Assembly: GCA_030428965.1 (NCBI GenBank)
Contig: JAUIEE010000006.1
Coordinates: forward strand, 1-32,020
Length of the DNA: 32,020 nucleotides
Reading direction: 5' to 3'
From: a bacterium
GTDB taxonomy: Bacteria > Planctomycetota > UBA1135 > GCA-002686595
The notes under the pieces are model-generated. The model worked only from the letters and a program-made list of their open reading frames with translations, did not search any database and had not been told where the DNA came from. This document shows positions 5,220 to 15,216 of the stretch, piece after piece. Position 1 is the first letter of the stretch. Each line of letters starts with the position of its first letter. The position numbers were made by a program, and so were the translations under genes.

Positions 5220-5296
5220 GCACCCGTAGCTCAGCTGGATAGAGCGCTTGCCTCCGGAGCAAGAGGTCACAGGTTCGAATCCTGTCGGGTGCACCA
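5220..5296 (+). tRNA. tRNA-Arg (anticodon CCG)
   Basis: A complete cloverleaf can be folded by eye. Acceptor arm GCACCCG pairs with CGGGTGC, D-stem GCTC with GAGC, anticodon stem CTTGC with GCAAG and T-stem ACAGG with CCTGT around TTCGAAT. The anticodon loop CTCCGGA gives anticodon CCG at 5254-5256, reading the arginine codon CGG. The CCA end is encoded (5294-5296). It is 77 nt long. The convergent barrel gene ends 19 bp downstream, with no gene on the same strand nearby. Confidence 0.97.
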
Positions 5297-8001: not shown

Positions 8002-9495
8002 TCAGACGACCGTGCCGTTGAAGCGGAAGGTCTTCTGCAAGCTCGACTGACGCTCGCCCTCGATCTCGTCGAGCACTTCGCGGGTGATGTCGTCCGTCGG
8101 GTACTTGCCCGTGAAGCAGGCGTTGCAGAACTGATCGAGCTGGGGGTTGCCCGCCTGGGCGCTTTGGTTCATCGCGTCCCGGTCGAGATAGAGAAGGTGG
8201 TCCGCCTCGAGCTGGGCGGCCACGTCCTCGGGCGAAAGACCGTTGGCGATGAACTCGGTCTTGGTCGCCATGTCGATCCCATAGGGGCACGGAGAGACCA
8301 GGGGCGGGCTGGTGATGCCCATGTAGACACGCCGGGCTCCGGCTTCCCTGGCCATGCGCACGATGCGCCGCGCCGTGTTGCCGCGGACGATCGAGTCGTC
8401 CACGAGCAGCACCTTCTTGTCGCGGAACTCCAGCGGGATCGCATTCAGCTTGCGCTTGACCGACGATCGGCGGGAGTCCTGGTTCGGCATGATGAAGGTG
8501 CGACCGATGTAGCGGTTCTTCACCAGCCCCTCGCGGTAGGGAATCCCGAGCTTGTTGGCCATGGCCATGGCGGCATCCCGCGACGAATCGGGAATCGGGA
8601 TCACCACGTCGGGCGTCGGGGCTCCGCTTCGAATCCACTCCTCAGCCAGCGCCTCGCCGAAGCGAATCCGCGTCTTGTAGACCGAAACCTGGTCGAGCAT
8701 CGAGTCGGTACGCGCGAAGTACACCCACTCGAAGATGCAGGGCCGGTGGGGCTTCGCGCTGAGAATGCGGCGATGGACCTTGCCTTCGGCATCGATGTAC
8801 ATCGCTTCGCCGTTGGCGAGATCCTCGATCTCGGTGTACCCGGCCACGTCGAGTACGACGCTCTCCGAAGCTACGGCGAACCAGGCCCCCTCGGCCGTCA
8901 TCTTCTTGCCGAAGACGATCGGTTTGATTCCGTAGGGATCCCGAAAGGCGACCAGCCCCCCATCGGGCAGGGCCGCGACGACCGAGTACGCCCCTTTGAC
9001 CTCCTCGTAGGTGGCACGGACCGCCGTGAAGACGTCTTCCGGTCCGACCAGCCCCTCGGCACCCACGTTGTCCGCCAACGCCTGCCCGAAGACGAACAGC
9101 AGAACCTCCAGGTCACAGGTCGAATTCAGTCGGCGTCCCGTGTGACGCCCGTGTCGTTCCCTCAGGTCCCCGAAGTTGGTCACGTTCCCGTTGTGGGCCA
9201 TGGCCACGCTGACCGGGAAGTTGACGTGGAAAGGCTGGGCGTCTTCCGCCGAACCTGCGCCGATGGTCGGGTAGCGCACGTGGCCCAGACCGAGGTTGCC
9301 GCGCAACCGCTCCATGTCCTGGACCTGGAAGACATCCCGGACCAGGCCACTGCCCTTCTTGACATGGAAGGTATCCGTGAAGGTCGTGATCCCGGCCGCG
9401 TCCTGGCCACGATGCTGGATCGCGAGAAGACCTTCGTAGATCTCCGGAGCAACGTCTACGCCCTCCGGACCAAAGACACCGATGAATCCGCACAT
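8002..9495 (-). CDS. purF: Amidophosphoribosyltransferase (first step of purine synthesis)
   Basis: The ORF extends further upstream, but the true start is the ATG at 9495, giving MCGFIGVFG, in which Cys2 becomes the N-terminal nucleophile of the glutaminase after Met removal. The protein (497 aa) joins an Ntn-type glutamine amidotransferase domain (1 to ~235) to a phosphoribosyltransferase domain with the PRPP loop VLLVDDSIVRGNTARR near 360-375. It converts PRPP and glutamine to 5-phosphoribosylamine in the cytoplasm. Four cysteines at about 253 (HRPCIFEW), 403 (SPCPYGID), 457 and 460 (FCNACF) match the [4Fe-4S] ligands of Bacillus subtilis PurF, so this is the iron-sulfur type, but with no propeptide before Cys. 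A promoter within an inverted repeat lies 67-95 bp upstream. Confidence 0.97.
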   Translation of the reverse strand: MCGFIGVFGPEGVDVAPEIYEGLLAIQHRGQDAAGITTFTDTFHVKKGSGLVRDVFQVQDMERLRGNLGLGHVRYPTIGAGSAEDAQPFHVNFPVSVAMAHNGNVTNFGDLRERHGRHTGRRLNSTCDLEVLLFVFGQALADNVGAEGLVGPEDVFTAVRATYEEVKGAYSVVAALPDGGLVAFRDPYGIKPIVFGKKMTAEGAWFAVASESVVLDVAGYTEIEDLANGEAMYIDAEGKVHRRILSAKPHRPCIFEWVYFARTDSMLDQVSVYKTRIRFGEALAEEWIRSGAPTPDVVIPIPDSSRDAAMAMANKLGIPYREGLVKNRYIGRTFIMPNQDSRRSSVKRKLNAIPLEFRDKKVLLVDDSIVRGNTARRIVRMAREAGARRVYMGITSPPLVSPCPYGIDMATKTEFIANGLSPEDVAAQLEADHLLYLDRDAMNQSAQAGNPQLDQFCNACFTGKYPTDDITREVLDEIEGERQSSLQKTFRFNGTVV

Positions 9496-9590: not shown

Positions 9591-9645
9591 GTGCGGGGGG
9601 CCCCAGAGAATCCCGAACGCCTCGCAACCCCCCGGGGGCAGGCCA

Positions 9646-9675
9646 GTCCCCTGGGTGGGTGGGGGCTAGGGATGG
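9646..9675 (+). repeat. 30-bp G-rich intergenic repeat, copy 1 (G-quadruplex type)
   Basis: This block is identical over 30 bp to 13967-13996. It contains four G-tracts in the pattern GGG-T-GGG-T-GGGGG-CTA-GGG. Here the G-richness continues to about 9708 with further runs of 3-6 G, giving roughly eight tracts in all. It lies between purF (-) and the alpha/beta hydrolase (+). Confidence 0.75.
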
Positions 9676-9726: not shown

Positions 9727-10605
9727 ATGGCCACCCAACACGAGGGTTCCGGGACCGTCCCCTTGCCAGGGGGGTCGAGTCTCCACTTCGAAATTCGCGG
9801 AGAGGGCCCGCCCCTCTTGGTTCCCGCAGCGAGCTGGGTGCTCGAGGACTTGGCTCCCCTGGAGGCCCACAGCTGCCTGGTCGGCTACGACGTGCGCGGA
9901 AGGGGGCGCTCGAGTGCTGTGACGGGCGACACCCCCTTCGGGCTCGACCAGGACTTGGAAGACCTCGAGGTCCTCAGGAAAGCGAGGGGTCTGGAGCGCA
10001 TGGCGATCCTCGGCTGGTCCTACTACGGCCTGCTGGCGGCGCGCTACGCCCTGGCCTACCCCGAGCGCGTCGAGCGCTTGGTCCTGGTCGGGCCCTCGGC
10101 TCCCCGTCGGCGCCCCTTCCTCGACGACTTCATGGATCGTTTCGCAGGCCGACTCGACCTGGAACGCCTGGAAGAGGTCGAACGGCTACGTCGCCAGGGG
10201 CAGCGAGAGACCCAACCGGTGAGCTGGTGCCGAGCCGTGCACGATCTGTACTTTCGCGCCTACGTCGTGGATCCCAAGCACCTCGAGGGAATGCGCAGCT
10301 CGCCGTGCGTCGAACCCAATCTCGACCCCGAGGCGGTCAACAACCTGGGGCGCAAGGCCCTCGAGAAGATGGGCGACTACGACTGGACCGAGGAGTTCAC
10401 GCGCCTCGAAACGCCTACGCTCGTGGTTCACGGAAGCGAGGATCCGGTTCCGCTGGAGGGTTCGTTGGAGTGGGAGCGCTGCCTGTCCAACGGGCAACTG
10501 CTTGCCCTCGAAGGGGTCGGTCACATGCCCTGGCTGGAAGCGCCCGAACTCTTCTTCGAGGCGGTTCGCGAATTCCTCGGGGCAGGAGACAGCGCTCTTT
10601 CCTGA
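9727..10605 (+). CDS. Alpha/beta hydrolase fold protein (proline iminopeptidase/haloperoxidase-like)
   Basis: I take the ATG at 9727 (MATQHEGSG, 292 aa); the upstream ATG in the ORF track would add a low-complexity G-rich stretch. The chain shows the standard fold order: HFEIRGEGPPLLVP, an oxyanion-hole region, the nucleophile elbow ILGWSYYG with Ser98, the acid in VVHGSEDPVP and the histidine in LEGVGHMPW. The elbow is G-W-S-Y-Y rather than the common G-x-S-x-G, because the +2 position is Tyr. An Arg/Glu-rich helical cap sits between strand 6 and the acid. The substrate is unknown; small ester, amide or peptide substrates are usual. The last 85 bp overlap the 3' end of mnmH on the other strand. 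Confidence 0.85.
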   Translation: MATQHEGSGTVPLPGGSSLHFEIRGEGPPLLVPAASWVLEDLAPLEAHSCLVGYDVRGRGRSSAVTGDTPFGLDQDLEDLEVLRKARGLERMAILGWSYYGLLAARYALAYPERVERLVLVGPSAPRRRPFLDDFMDRFAGRLDLERLEEVERLRRQGQRETQPVSWCRAVHDLYFRAYVVDPKHLEGMRSSPCVEPNLDPEAVNNLGRKALEKMGDYDWTEEFTRLETPTLVVHGSEDPVPLEGSLEWERCLSNGQLLALEGVGHMPWLEAPELFFEAVREFLGAGDSALS

Positions 10606-12545: not shown

Positions 12546-13269
12546 CGCCTTCCTCGGTCATTTCGAGCAGCGATTCCTCGACCGGATCGATTTCGGCCAA
12601 CAAGAGATCCAGGTCCTCGCCCACGAGAATGTCCCAGTTCTCGAGCACGTCGAGCGAGGCCAAGAGCTCTTCCTCGACGGCGAACTCGGGTGCCAACCCG
12701 AGCTCTTCACCGACAAAGCGTGGACGGTTCTCCAGGCCAAACGAGCTCCAGGCCACTGCGACGATGAACAGGAGACCGGCTGCGGCCAGAAGCTGCAGAC
12801 TGCGTCGTCCCAGGCGCTCTCGCCAGTGGGGGGACCGTTCGCCCTCGAGACCCTCCAGGATCCGCTCGGCCAAACCCGTCGGAACCTCGGGCTGGGGGAC
12901 AGCGTCGAGCAGTCGATCCAGACGCACCTGTTCGCGCTCTCCCTGCAGCCCCTGCAGCACTCGGGCCTGCAACCCCACAGGTGACGCGTGGACCGCATCC
13001 AGCTCGAGCAAGGCGTCCAAGCTCTGGTTCACAGGCTGCGACCGATCCCTCTCCAGGCGCGCCAGCACCCGGTGGGCCAGGTCGGGAGGAAGCATCGGTT
13101 CGGGCAAGGAGGCCAGGAGGGCTTCCAGGGCGTGCTCCGCTTCGAGCAGGGAGCGACAGCTGGTGCAGGCGAGAAGATGCTTGTGCCAAAACAGGTCCGG
13201 CGCCTCGTGGGACTTGCCCGAGAGGCGCTCCGAGAGCTCGGCGCGGAAGGCTTTGCAACGCTCGATCAT
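12535..13269 (-). CDS. Membrane anti-sigma factor with tandem-repeat linker
   Basis: The start codon overlaps the sigma-factor stop as ATGA. The 244-residue protein opens with C5 and H31-x3-C35-x2-C38 (HLLACTSC), a zinc-binding anti-sigma motif. Its first 20 residues (C-x-x-FRA) resemble those of the other anti-sigma factor at 1468-3240. Three clear repeats follow at 61-76, 97-112 and 130-145 (PPDLAHRVLARLERDR, PVGLQARVLQGLQGER, PTGLAERILEGLEGER), with a period of about 35 residues. A membrane segment lies near 158-174 (LQLLAAAGLLFIVAVAW), and the last 65 residues are very acidic and would face the periplasm. It probably holds the adjacent sigma factor inactive. Confidence 0.8.
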   Translation of the reverse strand: MIERCKAFRAELSERLSGKSHEAPDLFWHKHLLACTSCRSLLEAEHALEALLASLPEPMLPPDLAHRVLARLERDRSQPVNQSLDALLELDAVHASPVGLQARVLQGLQGEREQVRLDRLLDAVPQPEVPTGLAERILEGLEGERSPHWRERLGRRSLQLLAAAGLLFIVAVAWSSFGLENRPRFVGEELGLAPEFAVEEELLASLDVLENWDILVGEDLDLLLAEIDPVEESLLEMTEEGDDD

Positions 13270-13868
13270 GCCATCTCCTCCGCCAGGAAGGGGGTCAGCG
13301 CAGAGCGCAGGTTCTCGCGCGCACGATGAATGAGCGACTTGATCGCCTTCTCCGTCGAGCCGAGCACGTGGGCCACCTCTCCGTAGGGCATCTCCTCGTA
13401 CTTGGCCAGGATCAACGCCATCCTCTGGTTCTCGGGTAGGCGCAAGATGGCCTGGCGTACCGCTCGAACCACATCGGCCCTTTCGAGGCCCTCGGAAGGC
13501 AAGCCGCTCTTCGCGTCTTCAACCTCCACGGCTCCGGTCTCGGGGTCCGTTTCGAAATCGCTGGTGGTCCGGGCACGGGTGTTCAGACGTTCTCGCTCGT
13601 TGATGCTCAGGTTGTAGACGATGCGATAGAGCCAGGTAGACAGGCGGGCCGTGGGCTGGTACCGCTCGCGCGCTCGAATCAGGCGCAGAAAGACCTCCTG
13701 GACCAGGTCCTCGCGATGGGACACGGGCCCGAGGAAGCGGGTGACCAGGGAGAAGACCTGGCCGGAGTAGGCGTGCACGATGCGGTCGAAGGCGTGCTCG
13801 TCGCCCCGCTGGTAGGCGAGCATCAGCTGCACTCCGGGGTCTGAAGAAGATTCGTGCATCGGGGCCAT
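13266..13868 (-). CDS. ECF-family RNA polymerase sigma factor
   Basis: This 200-residue protein (a second ATG at 13859 is equally possible) has sigma region 2 (HAFDRIVHAYSGQVFSLVTR, DLVQEVFLRLIRARERYQP, STWLYRIVYNLSINERER) and sigma region 4 (ILRLPENQRMALILAKYEEMPYGEVAHVLGSTEKAIKSLIHRAREN). It resembles RpoE/SigW-type ECF factors. It heads a four-gene minus-strand unit with the anti-sigma factor, a DUF3106-like protein and mnmH. A GGAACC/GGTTCC inverted repeat lies 18-44 bp upstream and a sigma-70-like -10 (TAAAAT on the minus strand, 13925-13930) lies further up, so both housekeeping and auto-induced expression are possible. Confidence 0.92.
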   Translation of the reverse strand: MAPMHESSSDPGVQLMLAYQRGDEHAFDRIVHAYSGQVFSLVTRFLGPVSHREDLVQEVFLRLIRARERYQPTARLSTWLYRIVYNLSINERERLNTRARTTSDFETDPETGAVEVEDAKSGLPSEGLERADVVRAVRQAILRLPENQRMALILAKYEEMPYGEVAHVLGSTEKAIKSLIHRARENLRSALTPFLAEEMA

Positions 13869-13912: not shown

Positions 13913-13966
13913 GCCCCTGGGCTCATTTTATCTCGCCTGCCCACGAAACCGGCGCCTGCCTGGGCC

Positions 13967-13996
13967 GTCCCCTGGGTGGGTGGGGGCTAGGGATGG
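13967..13996 (+). repeat. 30-bp G-rich repeat, copy 2, overlapping the lepB stop codon
   Basis: This block is identical over 30 bp and in the same orientation to 9646-9675. It has the same four-tract G-quadruplex pattern, and another run of six G follows. Bases 13987-13989 (CTA) within the repeat are the TAG stop of lepB on the minus strand, so the repeat encodes the end of that protein. It lies 99 bp upstream of the ECF sigma gene. Confidence 0.75.
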
Positions 13997-15216
13997 TTGG
14001 GGGGAGTCAGGCCACCACGGAGCCAGCGAAAGCGTGACATGGGCCACACCACTGCCACCGGCACGCCCACGATCTCGGCCGCGCGGACGGGACCGAAGTG
14101 GCGTGAGTCGGTGCTGTCGCTCGAGTTGTCGCCCAGGAGGAAGTACTCGTCGGGGCCGAGGGTCAAGAGCGAGCTGACCGCGAAGCGGCCGTCCGAGGTG
14201 TAGTAGAGGTCGCGCAGCACGACGATCGAGCGGAAGCGTGCCCGGCAGGCCTCGCCTCCGAAAGCCACCCTCGGGCCGATGCTCCGCAGGGACGAGCCGG
14301 CGGGCGTGGGATAGGTCTCGTTCACCTTGTAGCCGACACCTACGCGGAAGTCGTCCAGCTCGAAGCTCAGGTAGTTGTCGATGTTGGCAAACAGCACGTG
14401 ATGCCACTTTCCCGCCTCGAACTGAATGGGACGATCCAGCAGGACATCGGAGCGGCGCCCGGGGTCGGTTTCCTTGAGGGTGGCCGTGTTCAGCCGTCGC
14501 AAGACCAGATGGAAGCCGTCCTCCTCCCGGGCAACGAGGGCTTGGAAAGTATCGCCGGCCTCCACGAGCTGGAAGCGCAACCGCCCTTCGTCGCTCGCCT
14601 CCGCATCCATGCGCACATCGCACTCGAGGATGCCGTCGTTGACCTGACGAAGACCGTGCACCGGGCGGTGGTCGACGCCGAGGTAGTCGTCGTTGAGCCG
14701 CTGGAAGAACATCATGCCTCCATTGGCGTCCCGGGGTACGGAGCGAGCGTCGAGCTCCCAGCTCTCTCCGTCCTGGGTCCACTGCACGGAGCTGTCGTTC
14801 TTGAAGCTGAAGTACTGACCCACTTCCAGGAGGCGGTCGTCGAACACGACCACGGGCTCAGGTCGCGCCGCATCTTCCGGCAAGCGGCGACCATCGACCA
14901 CGAGATCACCACTGGCGACCAGGACCGACTCCCCGGGCAGGGCCGCCACGCGCTTGACCAAGGGCTTGCCTCCATCCCGGGACTGCATCACCACCAGGTC
15001 GAAGCGCTCGACGTCAGGCGCGCGATCGTAGAGCACGAGCACCCGCTCGTTCAGCCCACGCTCGTCGTGGCCTTCCTTGCCGCCGAAGATCGTCGGGCGC
15101 ATCGAGCCGCTCTCGACGCGATAGACGTCCGCCACGAAGAACTTCACGACCAGCCCCAGGGACAAAACGGCGGTGAGGAGCCAGAGCCCCAGGGACCAGC
15201 GTCGGCCGCCTCTCAA
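13987..15216 (-). CDS. lepB: Signal peptidase I with large laminin-G-like insert
   Basis: The ORF track starts far too early. I place the start at TTG 15216, overlapping the mgtE stop as TTGA, which gives 409 residues with a membrane anchor immediately at the N-terminus (LGLWLLTAVLSLGLVVKFFV). Catalytic Ser38 lies in ESGSMRPT and the general base Lys88 in PLVKRVAALPGE. Box E is GDNSSDSTDSRHFGPV at 362-377. It cleaves signal peptides at the outer face of the inner membrane. About 270 residues separate Lys88 from GDN, far more than in compact signal peptidases. The insert (about 130-345) has beta-sandwich features of LamG/concanavalin-type domains (GRLRFQLVEAGDTFQALV, GKWHHVLFANIDNYLSFELDDF), so it may bind glycan or substrate. 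Confidence 0.9.
   Translation of the reverse strand: MRGGRRWSLGLWLLTAVLSLGLVVKFFVADVYRVESGSMRPTIFGGKEGHDERGLNERVLVLYDRAPDVERFDLVVMQSRDGGKPLVKRVAALPGESVLVASGDLVVDGRRLPEDAARPEPVVVFDDRLLEVGQYFSFKNDSSVQWTQDGESWELDARSVPRDANGGMMFFQRLNDDYLGVDHRPVHGLRQVNDGILECDVRMDAEASDEGRLRFQLVEAGDTFQALVAREEDGFHLVLRRLNTATLKETDPGRRSDVLLDRPIQFEAGKWHHVLFANIDNYLSFELDDFRVGVGYKVNETYPTPAGSSLRSIGPRVAFGGEACRARFRSIVVLRDLYYTSDGRFAVSSLLTLGPDEYFLLGDNSSDSTDSRHFGPVRAAEIVGVPVAVVWPMSRFRWLRGGLTPPNHP

Follow-up and report, generated by a model that had tools for sequence, protein, structure and literature searches.

An exact 30-bp repeat that begins inside two putative promoters

Why should one and the same G-rich sequence be present twice on a single planctomycete contig? 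The window, that is, the whole stretch of 32,020 bases that was analyzed, is an entire contig (C124) of a Planctomycetota MAG (5.12 Mb, 643 contigs, 84.5% complete). The 30-mer GTCCCCTGGGTGGGTGGGGGCTAGGGATGG is located in it at 9646-9675 and again at 13967-13996, both times on the + strand, which confirms the exact, same-orientation repeat reported in the initial annotation; 100 shuffles predict no chance match, even when up to three mismatches are allowed. The flanks had been described as diverging at once, but they do not: an AACC box lies equally far upstream of both copies, and a wider alignment of the two extends over 56 nt at 79%. As AACC is followed in both copies by a -10-like box, AGTC or CGTC, the noted repeat in fact begins within the -10 box (Table 1).

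Table 1. Putative promoter boxes, repeat cores and neighboring genes in the window.
Feature	Position	Strand	Remarks
purF-like amidophosphoribosyltransferase	8002..9495	-	Pfam PF13522 + PF00156; copy 1 promoter points away
Copy 1, -35-like box AACC	9626..9629	+	ECF-type promoter; AACC-N15-AGTC
Copy 1, -10-like box AGTC	9645..9648	+	final C is the first C of the CCCC run
Copy 1, CCCC run and one spacer base (T)	9648..9652	+	precedes the G-rich core
Copy 1, 23-nt G-rich core GGGTGGGTGGGGGCTAGGGATGG	9653..9675	+	four G3 tracts; RNA-like strand
Alpha/beta hydrolase	9727..10605	+	Pfam PF00561, E 1.5e-18; sense gene downstream of copy 1
ECF-type sigma factor, sigma-70 regions 2 and 4	13266..13868	-	Pfam PF04542 + PF08281
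Copy 2, -35-like box AACC	13947..13950	+	AACC-N15-CGTC
Copy 2, -10-like box CGTC	13966..13969	+	final C is the first C of the CCCC run
Copy 2, CCCC run and one spacer base (T)	13969..13973	+	
Copy 2, 23-nt G-rich core	13974..13996	+	identical to the copy 1 core
Signal-peptidase (S26)	13987..15216	-	Pfam PF10502; 3′ end antisense to the predicted copy 2 transcript

Both copies had been considered intergenic. This holds for copy 1, which is located between the divergently oriented purF and alpha/beta hydrolase genes (the ATG of the latter, at 9727, is 51 bp past the core), and fails for copy 2, the CTA of which is the stop codon (13987-13989) of the minus-strand signal-peptidase gene. The proposed tie to the minus-strand purF and ECF-sigma operons does not stand either, since the associated promoter is on the + strand and points away from both genes. 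Elsewhere in the window, a tRNA gene is found at 5220-5293 on the + strand (Rfam RF00005, 72 bits).

The core is widespread in one planctomycete family and recurs in distant lineages

Genomes were examined by sequence-pattern searches. With up to three mismatches, the core GGGYGGGTGGGGGCTAGGGATGG has seven copies in its own MAG, and the reversed-pattern control has none. Within the planctomycete family to which the window belongs, 30 of 81 genomes, representing 21 of 42 genera, carry the element, with up to 15 copies each; the other genera of the family have zero copies. When a half-motif was searched for, GGGYGGGYGGGGG was often followed by YTWGGGATGG in most carriers, and never in the carrier-free genomes searched. 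At an orthologous rhodanese/proS site in two genera (L136, L137, and L138), the core is kept while the flanks are unrecognizable. The dispersed repeat family that the initial annotation had considered is thus real, and the genome search that it had proposed yields further copies; their absence from the genome and from relatives, which would have pointed to a chance or local event, does not apply, because there are seven own copies and many in relatives.

An exact 23-nt pattern was then scanned against 84,980 species, and at least 118 stretches were retrieved. For all counts given here, copies of related MAGs are non-independent, and some of the sampling started from the type A pattern described below. 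The matches listed come mostly from Glycomyces, Actinoplanes (Paractinoplanes), Streptomyces, Thermoleophilia, other Actinomycetota, Chloroflexi, termite-gut Holosporales and one Patescibacteria genome. The exact core is present in five or more other lineages, among them low-GC carriers such as the termite-gut Holosporales (~45% GC) and the Patescibacteria genome (28-32% GC); a rough estimate from base composition predicts one or two chance matches over all high-GC genomes, and none in low-GC ones. No exact match was found among 2.9 million viral contigs (IMG/VR), nor any full-length match in plasmids or phages (PLSDB, INPHARED), the records in which a phage- or plasmid-borne mobile element should be carried.

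Four G-tracts are kept, even when the fourth one changes

The element can be written CCCC-N0-6-GGGYGGGYGGGGG-NYN-(GGGA or GNGG)-YGG, a single, fixed, non-tandem unit of 28-34 nt. The C-run belongs to it: although CCCC was absent from the search pattern, C4 occurs no more than 10 nt upstream of the core in 116 of the 128 copies listed in other records, as against 12 downstream. Two types of ending exist, CTA/TTA-GGGATGG (type A) and CCC/ACC-GCGGTGG (type B), the latter chiefly in Pla86 (CP036296.1) and G085.

The variation between them was followed by a search of the family in which positions 14-16, 18, 20, and 21 were left free; the 94 distinct places obtained were tallied by hand. The fourth tract reads GGGA in 73 and GNGG in 21 (N being C in 18, T in 2, and A in 1). 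Three Gs are present within positions 17-20 in all 94 places, never fewer, and wherever position 18 is not G, position 20 is G. When the middle G is lost and position 20 becomes G, the fourth tract still has three Gs, interrupted by a one-base bulge; as type B is confined to few genera, this tract-restoring change represents few independent events. Position 15 co-varies, T occurring with A20 and C with G20. Outside the G-tracts, T15, A20, T21, G22, and G23 are near-invariant.

The four G-tracts with short loops noted in the initial annotation are accordingly contiguous in 73/94 places and carry a one-base bulge in tract 4 in 21/94, tracts 1-3 having been set by the search pattern. The mean G4Hunter score is 2.14. 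In an RNA energy model, the G4 of copy 1 (type A) is predicted at -19.9 kcal/mol and the competing hairpin at -9.8 kcal/mol; for type B the predicted G4 is only modestly favored over the hairpin. Retention of four tracts, even in the variant with a bulged fourth tract (94/94), supports, at the level of sequence, the formation of a quadruplex.

Other structures were considered and rejected. The copies gave no Rfam covariance-model match. Folding scores for a general upstream hairpin equal those of controls, save weakly in mixed soil bacteria, and an outer AACC/GGTT stem is clear in Pla86 only, being elsewhere confounded by lineage. A small ORF that would open with the conserved ATG, the preceding GGGGG run resembling a Shine-Dalgarno sequence, displays neither codon periodicity nor an excess of open frames, and in some copies ACG or GCG replaces the ATG; at L113, L098, and L115 the core ATG resembles the real start of the downstream gene (e.g., a GluQ-type tRNA-Asp synthetase or a lipoprotein). 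The core is not palindromic, unlike a TGTTTCACGTGAAACA-like parS site, and TGTTCCACGTGGAACA sites occur separately.

A putative ECF-type promoter points into the core

On the G-rich strand, NACC-N15/16-NRTC is located upstream of the core and points into it in 84 of 91 family copies (shuffled control: mean 4.3, maximum 11). The spacing has a sharp peak, with 46 at N15 and 39 at N16, and a narrower box set is found in 76 copies on the true strand, as against 1 and 3 in the opposite-strand controls. In the commonest layout GTC abuts CCCC, the first G following 3-10 nt after the end of the -10 box; in other copies, mainly those of G013 and G078, the -10 box lies 12-36 nt upstream. If boxes clear of the C-run alone are considered, the spacing is still kept (12 at N16 vs. 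0.7 expected). Judged by sequence, these boxes have what defines an ECF promoter, namely AAC/ACC at -35, GTC at -10 and a fixed spacing of ~15-17 bp. The geometry of the putative promoter, its direction, the core family and the retention of four G3 tracts are all strongly supported as sequence features.

The published ECF41 promoter, TGTCACA-n16-CGTC (PMC3426412), shares with the element the -10 CGTC and a spacer of 15-16 bp, and some copies have TGTCACC at -35; most copies, unlike ECF41, have AACC there. Furthermore, a conserved transcribed G-rich segment is no known part of ECF promoters.

In other phyla the same core follows different upstream sequences. In about half of the Glycomyces copies the C-run is preceded by TGTC at ~34 nt and TAnnnT at 6 nt, while TTGACA is found upstream of the core in Actinoplanes and TTAA-N7-TTAA boxes in Holosporales. 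Outside the planctomycete family, evidence of a promoter is lineage-specific and weaker. A transcript read off the C-rich strand from CCATCCC looked promising in Patescibacteria and Holosporales, yet a general -10 signal for it was not found.

Genes around the copies have no common orientation or function

Using gene calls from our own codon-usage model, 71 family copies could be classified as divergent (23), tandem (40) or convergent (8), the next downstream gene being sense in 41/71 and antisense in 30/71. Gene orientation around the copies is mixed, so the element is no ordinary class of gene promoter. In Pla86 the copies are clustered, with five gaps between neighbors below 10 kb vs. 0.30 expected, and the two window copies, 4.3 kb apart, are clustered in the same manner. 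No specific evidence was found for the replication-pausing element that had been suggested: the 15 Pla86 copies are biased toward dnaA (p = 0.002), but the bias fades when clusters are collapsed to one point each (p = 0.075), and the corresponding value for G085 is 0.43. No recurrent protein family was found among the neighbors of the copies. Purine genes adjoin some of them (purD, purB, and purF in Glycomyces, at L150, L163, L192, and L201, with purD and purB identified by eye from the sequence, and purF at window copy 1), but a purine regulon was discarded because orientation is inconsistent and most neighbors are unrelated.

A promoter-linked G-quadruplex as a candidate cis-acting element

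Since each copy in this genome is located where a stress-type promoter appears to begin RNA synthesis, transcription itself may fold it into a four-stranded G-quadruplex. The interpretation that we favor, with moderate confidence, is that of a G-quadruplex/R-loop element that is linked to a promoter, transcribed and active in cis, with an architecture like that of the gonococcal pilE G4/sRNA locus. It would consist of an ECF-sigma-type promoter (NACC, 15-16 bp, NRTC) and a conserved initially transcribed segment, CCCC-N0-6-GGGYGGGYGGGGG-NYN-GGGAYGG, the G-rich strand of which would be the RNA-like (non-template) strand. With the sigma factor active, RNA polymerase would make a G-rich RNA that stays hybridized to the C-rich template strand, and the freed non-template strand, the 5′ end of the RNA, or both, could then fold into a very stable parallel G-quadruplex. 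Such a G4/R-loop may set, in cis, promoter escape and the output of a leader or antisense transcript, and may keep the local DNA open. Because the working part would be the transcribed G4 and not the sigma factor, a lineage could replace its promoter by another. That the element is transcribed, folds and has a function is what we infer, and a regulatory element, as already suggested in the initial annotation, is its probable role. The strict conservation of T15 and of the ATGG tail does speak against this interpretation, as it exceeds what G4 folding needs. More tentatively, the copies of all phyla might represent an undescribed phylum-crossing class, in which a fixed C4/G-rich transcription-start G-quadruplex segment, attached to any promoter, would switch on local G4/R-loops at many chromosomal sites.

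That T15, A20, T21, G22, and G23 are near-invariant beyond the G-tracts would be explained if the element were a double-stranded binding site for a conserved regulator or nucleoid protein, situated between or beside promoters; the intergenic location of the copies and their lack of strand preference would fit as well. We consider such a protein site improbable, because the distance between CCCC and the core varies from 0 to 6 nt, the core, with a length of at least 23 nt, lacks symmetry, no recurrent protein family was found next to it, and the change from type A to type B preserves the G-tracts and not the bases; of the roles initially proposed, a protein-binding site thus keeps some plausibility and fits poorly with the freedom of CCCC and the restoration of the fourth tract. 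A family of trans-acting small RNAs would agree with the promoter on the G-rich strand and with several copies per genome; in it, the conserved G-rich 5′ end, acting as a G4 or as a seed that recognizes C-rich targets, would shield the RNA or base-pair with its targets, and the 3′ portions would vary. The downstream gene is often antisense, and many transcripts would therefore be non-coding. Nevertheless, no sequence is conserved past the core, Rfam gives no match, and in some copies the -10 box lies only a few bases ahead of the core, which would leave part of CCCC, and perhaps the first G-tract, untranscribed; on balance we regard small RNAs of this kind as unlikely. Most doubtful of all is a dispersed repeat of the REP or MITE kind, selfish or neutral, which would spread and have its promoter by accident. 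Local clustering as in Pla86, Holosporales copies that are paralogous repeats of 100+ nt, Streptomyces copies within repeat arrays and tandem expansions at three loci would all suit a spreading repeat, but family copies have only promoter boxes and core in common, the core outlasts its flanks at the orthologous site, and plasmid or phage carriers of the full-length element were not found.

In Neisseria gonorrhoeae, an sRNA initiates inside the G4-forming sequence at pilE and acts in cis, and it was proposed to free the G-rich strand by means of an RNA:DNA hybrid (PMC3547852). By sequence geometry, the predicted promoter start of the present element likewise falls at or in a G4-forming sequence that the promoter adjoins; the G-rich RNA would hybridize to the C-rich strand, and the promoter is often not aimed at a neighboring gene. 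Unlike the pilE G4, the element has another sequence, several copies per genome, a CCCC prefix, an occurrence in many phyla and, in the planctomycete family, an ECF-type promoter; antigenic variation or gene conversion is not in evidence here.

The TMECO/PIT motif of enterobacteria, CCCTCNCCC-N3-6-GGGNGAGGG-N3-GGGNGAGGG, has self-complementary C and G tracts and is without promoter or terminator activity (PMC4666352). Both motif and element are dispersed and intergenic, lack strand bias, are not tied to mobile elements, and present a C-tract, then a G-tract, a three-base loop (TTA) and a second G-tract. In contrast to the motif, the element has a 4-nt C-tract that cannot pair along the G-tract, its core lacks a complementary one, mirror symmetry is missing and a promoter is attached; the predicted fold is a long hairpin for the Escherichia coli TMECO motif and a G4 for the present core. 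Another report (PMC4692102) describes quadruplex-forming intergenic short tandem repeats in Xanthomonas and Nostoc; these are also G4-type repeats of bacterial genomes, whereas the present element is single, fixed, non-tandem and 28-34 nt long. Literature searches with the exact sequence returned only synthetic G4s, aptamers, and other unrelated papers, and those on ECF-dependent G-rich small RNAs of Planctomycetes nothing relevant.

Bacterial G4s are known mostly from counts, and conserved cases that can be tested are few. The present sequence of 28-34 nt is conserved in several phyla, even in genomes with a GC content of 28-45%, where such G-runs seldom occur; in one family, exact spacing ties it to a promoter. 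If the interpretation as a transcribed G-quadruplex/R-loop element is true, both selection on co-transcriptional G4s in bacteria and the pilE arrangement as one case of a general device would become directly testable.

Lineage-specific sequences surrounding the core

Several lineages present additional features close to the core. At L125, L127, and L143 (2001-2119), degenerate tandem expansions with units of 26-32 nt are found downstream, as if the core were slippage-prone. In the termite-gut Holosporales (L153, L154, L178, L187, and others; genome Cd354_bin23 has many copies), the TTAA-N7-TTAA boxes are CtrA-site-like, lie on both sides within the paralogous repeats that include the core, and form an inverted repeat. 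In Streptomyces (L223, L232, L147, and L257) the core is embedded in intergenic repeat arrays of the GCCGGACGGGCTG type, with a spacing of ~94-110 nt in two of the four loci. In Paractinoplanes, a DnaA-box-like TGTGGATAAC or its complement is found ~45 nt upstream of the core at L166, L185, L206, L209, L243, and L254, and four copies have TTGACA upstream. Finally, at the Glycomyces loci L161, L150, L160, and L163, the core is preceded at ~40-75 nt by an inverted repeat of variable sequence, GGGTGACA...TGTCGTACCC, with apparent compensatory changes.
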